DNA from: Halobacteriales archaeon SW_6_65_15 | GTDB taxonomy: Archaea; Halobacteriota; Halobacteria; Halobacteriales; Haladaptataceae | Direction of reading: 5' to 3' | DNA: 42,046 nt | Assembly (NCBI GenBank): GCA_003023465.1 | Contig: PXSM01000077.1 | Span: 1 to 42,046, forward strand | Part shown: positions 3,003 through 38,836 of the stretch, piece after piece | How positions within the stretch are numbered: position 1 is the first letter of the stretch | How the letters are laid out: each line of letters starts with the position of its first letter | Program-made: the position numbers and the translations under genes | Notes under the pieces: model-generated | What the model was told of the DNA's origin: nothing | What the model saw: only the letters and a program-made list of their open reading frames with translations | The model's database searches: none

Positions 3003-3087
3003 CCCTCGACTTTTCGGGACGGGGAACTTCCTTCGGGACTCGCTCGGTGACACGTTCCACGAAGGGCACACCCGGTGAACCAGACCA

Positions 3088-3168
3088 CCGTCGGGTGGAT
3101 AAAGGGGCCGCCAGAGACGACCACGGGCCGGTGGCCCGCGACCGGGCGGGAGCTTTCGAAACGTTCTC
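3088..3168 (+). repeat. Short copy of a dispersed MITE-like intergenic repeat
   Basis: GGGTGGATAAAGGGGCCGCCAGAGACGACC...CGCGACCGGGCGGGAGCTTTCGAAACGTTCT; termini shared with 36538-36727 and 38523-38836. Confidence 0.7.
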
Positions 3169-3330
3169 GGCTGTGGATTCTGCTGCAAATTCTCTATCGA
3201 CCGCTAGCGACAGAGTGGGGACTTTCGAAGCTGTCCCGTTCATGACGAGTTCTCCAACGAACCGACCGCCAACAACTGATCGTCGCGGGTGTCACCCATA
3301 TTTAACACCCCGTGGACCTTTTCACCAGCC

Positions 3331-36354: not shown

Positions 36355-36537
36355 GGTTCGGAAATTTACCGGACGGAACGTAAGGGTTCGTGTCTCGGAG
36401 ACGGGGTACGGATACCCCCAGTCTGCCATCTCCGCGAGGCGCTCGGTGACGCAATCCACCGGGAGCGCCCGGTGACACATTCCACCGGTAGCACTCGGTG
36501 AGACAGACCACCAGTAGCGCCCCGTGACCCAAGATAC

Positions 36538-36727
36538 CCGTCAGGGTGGACTGAAAGGGGCCGCCCGGTCGCGTCCAGTTCAGTCGTCTCTGGCGGCCCT
36601 ATCTGCGACGGGCGGTGTCTTCGGGAGCGAAGCGACCGAAGGCTCGGAAGAGCATGCTCTTCCGGTGCGGAGAGGCCGGATATGTCGCTGAGCGACCGCG
36701 ACCGGGCGGGGGCTTTCTAACCGTTCT
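36538..36727 (+). repeat. Medium copy of MITE-like intergenic repeat
   Basis: GGGTGGACTGAAAGGGGCCGCCCGGTCGCG ... GCGACCGCGACCGGGCGGGGGCTTTCTAACCGTTCT; internal palindrome GGAAGAGCATGCTCTTCC. Confidence 0.75.
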
Positions 36728-38459: not shown

Positions 38460-38522
38460 GCTGGCGGGGGTTCGCTCCCGAAAGCTTGGGATGATTGCTA
38501 TGAACTGCATGAGCTGTAGGTG

Positions 38523-38836
38523 AGAACGTTTAGAAAGCCCCCGCCCGGTCGCGGTCGTCGTCCGAAAATCGAAGATTTTCGTGACTGAGCAGGACGCAGT
38601 CCCGCGAGGGCAGCGAGAGCGGCGCTCTCGCGTGCTCACGAAAGAGCGTCGCTCTTTCGAACGACTCTGGCGGATATCTGCGCCTCACCGCAACGCACCG
38701 CCACGGCGCAGATAGAGCCGCCAGAGACGACCATGTCCTTCGGACGCCGGGAGACTGCGTCTCCCGAGGTCACCCTCGCTCACCGCGTTCGCTCGCGTGA
38801 CCGCGACCTGGCGGCCCCTTTCAGTCCCGCCCGCGC
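38523..38836 (-). repeat. Long copy of MITE-like intergenic repeat with several internal hairpins
   Basis: Reverse complement begins GGGACTGAAAGGGGCCGCCAGGTCGCGGTC and ends GACCGCGACCGGGCGGGGGCTTTCTAAACGTTCTC. Confidence 0.78.

Follow-up and report, generated by a model that had tools for sequence, protein, structure and literature searches.

The window analysed here, the whole stretch of 42,046 nucleotides, carries three copies of a non-coding repeat. The longest lies on the minus strand, where its hairpin core extends over 290 bp from left end to right end (38533-38822; ends read directly and found by pattern). The left end, GAAAGGGGCCGCCAGGTCGCG (38802-38822, minus strand), has one mismatch to the consensus and consists of the 5' arm of an outer stem, a GGG loop and the 5' arm of a 13-bp stem. 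The right end, CGCGACCGGGCGGGGGCTTTC (38533-38553, minus strand), provides the 3' arms and matches the consensus exactly. It is followed by a conserved tail, TAAACGTTCTCACC... (38508-38532, minus strand), with an information content above background, and the centre of the core is a variable hairpin (38658-38742, minus strand; stems P3 and P4 and the CTATC/GATAT motif) matched by the covariance model with 34.5 bits (E 5e-5). The second copy, on the plus strand, has a hairpin core of 165 bp (36553-36717; covariance model 82.5 bits, E 7e-15), with the left and right ends placed by pattern at 36553-36573 and 36697-36717. On its left is an array of 26-bp units identified by tandem repeat finder (36439-36552, plus strand; period 26 called at 36439-36532), whose last unit runs into the left end. 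The third copy (3100-3157, plus strand) is degenerate and, at 58 bp, has lost most of its interior; its right end has one mismatch, and the covariance model matches it weakly (E 0.11). Array units were read directly on its left (3041-3099, plus strand), and a second right end with five mismatches to the consensus (3206-3226, plus strand) follows 69 bp after the first, a spacing typical of right-end repeats.

In a preliminary description of this DNA the repeat had been characterised as dispersed and non-coding, with conserved ends and a modular hairpin interior, and genome counts, alignment and fold support this picture. The termini that it named are those located above on the minus strand, every short stem that it listed in the long copy is present, and a recount of the inverted ends of the second copy (GAAAGGGGCCGCCCGGTCGCG versus GAAAGCCCCCGCCCGGTCGCG) gave the same 18 identical positions out of 21. 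The three mismatches, however, are the conserved GGG/GGG internal loop and not decay. Likewise, the number of three copies stands, but the lengths of about 80, 190 and 310 bp include flanks, the cores measuring 58, 165 and 290 bp. The limits of the element had been drawn too narrowly, as it also includes the 26-bp array on the left and, on the right, about 25 bp of conserved tail.

From left to right, the repeat comprises 26-27-bp units in tandem, a long hairpin, the conserved tail and, sometimes, right-end repeats. Arrays sit left of many copies and have a unit consensus near GCGCTCGGTGACACAAACCACCGGGA; in the sequence examined, 65 of 73 array units lie directly upstream of a left end (reversed control, 0). 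The outer stem of the hairpin occurs as GAAAG/CTTTC, TGAAG/CTTCA or GGAAG/CTTCC, and the GGG/GGG internal loop is fixed, with a GGCGA/GAGGG variant in some genera. Inward of this loop follow the 13-bp stem, a bulge of 7-9 nt, a variable stem and a short internal loop, and the hairpin is topped by a CTAT/ATA stem, the upper part of which is variable, and then by the apical loop. Extra hairpin modules are found mainly in two places, the bulge that follows the 13-bp stem and the apical loop; the long copy of the window has additional modules also 3' of the central hairpin. Across 162 copies, about 25 bp past the right end exceed the background information content, and some copies repeat the right end at a spacing of 57-76 bp. 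On a plasmid of Halorussus salilacus (L150, 6190-6400), one hairpin is followed by three near-identical 66-bp units, each with a terminal right end. An alternative left module, GCGCGAGGGATGAGCAYCGC...GCAATCGGCTGGGGAGGNGTGTGGC, replaces the 26-bp array directly left of the hairpin in 15 of 23 cases examined in the genome of the window (for example L006, L043 and L056); it was also seen in other genera (L257, L281) and occurs without a hairpin too. Copies in G327, a genome of another genus, form inverted pairs that point outwards; the two members are about 290 bp apart, and the AT-rich TTTTTATAAATGG lies between them (for example L281).

Distribution and conserved fold

The window belongs to a Halorussus-like MAG (assembly G000; 2.51 Mb, 62% complete), in which the left-end pattern has 94 matches with three mismatches allowed, or 111 as a 22-mer with two mismatches, against none for the reversed pattern. 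For the right end there are 214 matches and one in the reversed control. The genome-wide search for paired termini proposed in the preliminary description showed that the ends co-occur and not by chance: 113 of 121 right ends in the sequence examined have a left end at most 700 bp upstream. Among named records, exact left ends were found in Halorussus and Haladaptatus. A covariance model built from copies of the repeat matched 75 of 300 haloarchaeal genomes at E <= 0.001, which represent 32 of the 78 genera. In a phylum sample of 397 genomes there were 22 with matches, all from the same order (the sample's number outside that order is not given). The 29 matches inspected from other genera have the same ends and motifs, with one of them partial. 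Copy number is patchy and ranges from 0 to more than 100 within one genus. Since copies were collected by their ends, the conservation of the ends is partly a matter of ascertainment. The possibility that the repeat belongs to a known ncRNA family, also raised in the preliminary description, found no support in Rfam 15, where the window had no match at the gathering score and the best relaxed match was mir-2013 with 24 bits against a cutoff of 70. Phage records gave no match, and the repeat was not found described in the literature searched; a G-quadruplex paper met in that search deals with oligonucleotides from Hadesarchaea, and haloarchaea are not among the organisms examined in the RepRanger paper. 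The repeat is a previously uncatalogued family located between genes of salt-loving archaea.

The fold of the long copy is more stable than that of shuffled sequences (z -7.7 with RNA and -7.4 with DNA parameters; 0 of 200 shuffles as stable). The check for covariation suggested in the preliminary description was based mainly on 48 copies aligned without structure and gave a strong signal: both sides have changed in 22 of 41 pairs, the number of double-changed cells is 195 against 56.7±5.9 in shuffles, and pairing amounts to 95.6% against 36-43% with the partner slid. A class-wide alignment yields the identical fold, with 23 of 34 pairs double-changed. In the 13-bp stem within the supposed terminal repeats, the letters are replaced completely between genera and pairing is retained, whereas sequence-conserved terminal repeats would keep their letters. 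The letters of the internal loop vary little between genera. As the ends and the folded shape stay constant while the stem arms change in matched pairs, the fold and not the sequence would be what is recognised, which suggests that some factor reads the fold of the repeat.

Insertion, loss and turnover between species

Mobility, as assumed in the preliminary description, is supported by one clean insertion site. The gap between cbiG and a methyltransferase gene in a cobalamin operon contains the element in Halorussus lipolyticus (G015) and in G016, where it is about 272 bp long, and measures about 35-45 bp in four other Halorussus genomes. These four gaps are roughly 230-240 bp shorter and have no recognisable array, hairpin or tail. 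The simplest reading is one insertion in the G015/G016 lineage, and since the site is clean in four related species, insertion does occur. The junctions at this one clean site are old and have diverged, and no target duplication is visible there. At three further presence/absence sites, one copy between G016 and G015 and two between G004 and G014, the hairpin is missing and array- or tail-like pieces remain; these sites are thus read as hairpin deletions. The 'empty' sites of G004 and G014 (about 95% identity) were accordingly set aside as evidence of insertion. The locus of the long copy of the window has no close intergenic homology in sister species and therefore provides no empty site. A probable counterpart of 116 bp lies beside the same epimerase gene in G017, with a match in one flank only.

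Many copies occupy addresses common to several species rather than representing recent jumps. By means of the flanking genes, 19 pairs of copies at shared addresses were enumerated, and one address is occupied in four species. Interiors at shared addresses are 0.588 identical (19 pairs), compared with 0.596±0.154 for random pairs. The ends differ at 0-2 of 42 positions in about half of the pairs, and at more positions where the end type has switched: at some shared addresses TGAAG/CTTCA stands for the GAAAG/CTTTC of the other species, at both ends at once. The TGAAG/CTTCA type is common in G015 and G016 (for example loci L178-L180 and L198-L211). In the closest pair, with flanks about 93% identical, the ends are unchanged, and both variable stems have diverged in a compensated manner. 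The two copies of a second pair have entirely different interiors; that of G016 has its nearest match in another G016 copy and not in its G015 counterpart, and nearest-neighbour interiors are in general enriched within genomes. The interiors of L161 and L290, at a shared site, are similar (0.82), so replacement is not universal. Near-left intergenic identity in the more distant pairs is 0.63 versus 0.555 for random pairs and thus near saturation, so that only close pairs bear on the rate of turnover; at the more distant addresses compensated drift alone could suffice. The set contains no identical recent copies, the best interior score being 0.97. Judging from these sequence comparisons, the turnover of interiors via compensated changes can outpace that of their surroundings. 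Ectopic exchange probably also drives the turnover of interiors, a step that we infer.

Relation to known repeat families

The preliminary description called the repeat MITE-like. This term fits insofar as the repeat is dispersed, non-coding and, by the one clean site, mobile; membership in a MITE family of a known transposon is unsupported, as no partner was found among the Y1 and TnpB loci surveyed and no target duplication was seen. MITEs, as defined for Haloquadratum, share related terminal inverted repeats with a known transposon and often have a target duplication (PMC3119063). Inverted ends are present here; the related transposon is absent from the Y1 and TnpB loci surveyed. The end pair occurs in none of 27 Y1-transposase loci from 19 Halorussus genomes and in none of four TnpB loci of the genome of the window, and neither an autonomous partner nor a link to a transposase was found among these loci. 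An IS605/TnpB partner was consequently rejected for the loci tested, none of which has the end pair. Moreover, the presence of Y1 does not track copy number, and there are genomes with 74 left ends and no Y1. An isolated right-end remnant, with no left end, lies downstream of a degenerate tnpB in the genome of the window (L245, 1955).

That the repeat is a classical MITE, with terminal inverted repeats of a DDE transposon and moved by the transposase of the latter, would agree with the inverted ends identical at 18 of 21 positions, the lack of coding capacity and the patchy copy number. We regard it as very unlikely, however: terminal repeats that are read as sequence would not have their end stem replaced completely between genera with pairing kept, the ends contain a loop that is asymmetric on one strand, and the clean site has no visible target duplication. 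An origin as an IS200/IS605-derived palindromic element (PATE) appears still more improbable. PATEs are common in haloarchaea, have palindromes near their ends and cause no duplication (PMC3119063), but end palindromes shared with IS605-type elements were not found in the 27 Y1 loci of the genus or the four TnpB loci of the genome, and Y1 is missing from genomes with 74 left ends. A linked Y1-type RAYT, as in REP/BIME systems, was not found either, as the Y1 loci lack the ends and element-rich genomes can be devoid of Y1.

The SMRs of Haloquadratum are about 110 bp long, contain no gene, cause no target duplication and have inverted ends without relatives among known transposons; identity between copies of one type commonly exceeds 95%, and the targets are IS605 or PATE ends (PMC3119063). 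The present repeat resembles them in being gene-free and in having inverted ends, with no related transposon among the Y1 and TnpB loci surveyed and no target duplication visible at the clean site. It differs in that its copies are intergenic and highly diverged, their interiors having a mean identity of about 60%. BOX elements of Streptococcus pneumoniae are modular, intergenic and capable of forming stem-loops, with conserved end modules, variable internal or tandem modules and about 100 copies. Compared by description and not by sequence, the present repeat is likewise modular and intergenic with conserved ends and variable modules, but covariation in its arms is not accompanied by conserved sequence, and its family extends over an entire archaeal class. 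ERIC elements of enterobacteria are imperfect palindromes of about 120 bp that are intergenic and of enigmatic mobility; they are conserved in sequence, whereas in the present repeat stem letters are replaced and pairing is kept. Integron attC sites, which consist of an outer box, an unpaired central spacer, an inner box and a variable terminal structure, are recognised as a folded single strand. The similarity to attC may be one of layout and mode of action only, and, judging by copy coordinates, the present copies are not ordered as gene-cassette arrays. We would class the repeat as a new family of interspersed repeats, conserved in fold and class-wide in range, that resembles BOX or ERIC in its behaviour.

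Possible functions and significance

All 178 copies with predicted neighbour genes, which were called for this context analysis by a simple composition-based heuristic, are intergenic. Copies with co-directional neighbours show a modest excess of the same orientation (67 versus 41 opposed, p 0.016). No position preference was found between convergent and divergent gaps, and a role as terminator or promoter, as judged by position, was therefore dropped. Promoters are not enriched upstream of the element. These data bear on the possibility that the repeat is a structured RNA, with the left-to-right strand transcribed and the RNA fold under selection, for example as a UTR stability or processing element or as a small-RNA family. 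Such a role is conceivable though unlikely. Strong covariation with conserved loop letters, the orientation excess with co-directional genes and the higher number of G-T than A-C mismatches (23 versus 11) would agree with it, but the lack of promoter enrichment, the indifference to convergent and divergent gaps and the missing Rfam match would not. The excess of wobble pairs is also small on alignment A1 (12 versus 7 isolated cells) and reversed in the genome of the window; the strand-specific wobble test for RNA-level selection, weak and inconsistent in its result, was set aside.

A blast search of one family variant against plasmids listed 13 Haloarcula plasmid records among its matches. By accession, all 12 records encoding an OB-fold protein ('SOSS complex subunit B') with at least 57% identity are among the hairpin matches listed. 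At nine Haloarcula loci (L307-L310, L312-L315, L319) a single hairpin lies about 500-650 bp upstream of the OB-fold gene and points away from it, and a Halorientalis plasmid (L317) repeats this arrangement, with a hairpin about 1.1 kb upstream of a 40%-identical OB-fold homologue. The plasmid hairpin is a conserved island (0.90/0.74/0.97 versus about 0.4 in the non-coding DNA on its right); its promoter side is fairly conserved as well. A hairpin copy on pHsi204 of Haloarcula sinaiiensis (L311, 4012-4115) has no OB-fold gene annotated beside it. Several of these plasmids belong to type MPF_T, and pHH126 has its counterpart in part of the minichromosome of another H. hispanica strain (PMC4441112).

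The position of the hairpin beside the OB-fold gene in Haloarcula and Halorientalis plasmids is the reason to consider a novel reading, according to which the family would be a single-strand DNA processing site acting through its fold only, such as a transfer or replication origin of conjugative plasmids, scattered over chromosomes with arms continually replaced between constant ends. We consider this reading speculative and improbable. The proposal of a plasmid site for single-strand processing in transfer, single-strand replication or recombination, from which the chromosomal copies derive, is in our view decidedly doubtful. The fixed single copy upstream of the gene in Haloarcula, the 12 of 12 gene-bearing records among the matches listed and the same arrangement in Halorientalis argue for it, and fold-only conservation would suit recognition of a single strand. 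However, most copies are chromosomal and have no such gene beside them, the pHsi204 copy does without it too, and neither a relaxase nor a nick site was identified.

We see an even chance that the long copy belongs to a haloarchaeal family of interspersed repeats that are non-autonomous and recognised by their fold. A trans-acting enzyme, which we infer along with the function of the repeat, would use the outer stem and the GGG/GGG loop to recognise a folded single strand of DNA or, with lower probability, of RNA, and would occasionally place a copy at a new site. If nothing but the fold counts, compensated changes can accumulate freely in the arms, and copies can exchange their arms, presumably through ectopic recombination that uses the conserved ends as anchors. 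Hairpins also appear to be lost, with pieces of the left array and the right tail staying behind. This fold-recognised repeat would account for the paired ends, the copy number, the covariation, the exclusively intergenic positions, the cbiG insertion, the turnover of interiors and the signs of exchange. Against it stand the lack of a mobilising enzyme or autonomous copy in the Y1 and TnpB loci and of a target duplication at the clean site, the single number of such insertion sites, the lack of identical recent copies, the partial ascertainment of end conservation and the near saturation of flanks at distant addresses.

With the repeat, a non-coding element outside Rfam is present in 32 of 78 sampled haloarchaeal genera and reaches more than 100 copies per genome at most. 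That arms turn over at fixed addresses while pairing and ends stay constant provides a natural experiment for studying how nucleic acids are recognised by fold only, and also for studying ectopic exchange in polyploid archaea. As copies reside on Haloarcula plasmids such as pHH126 and pNG500, in tractable hosts, the function of the repeat is directly testable.
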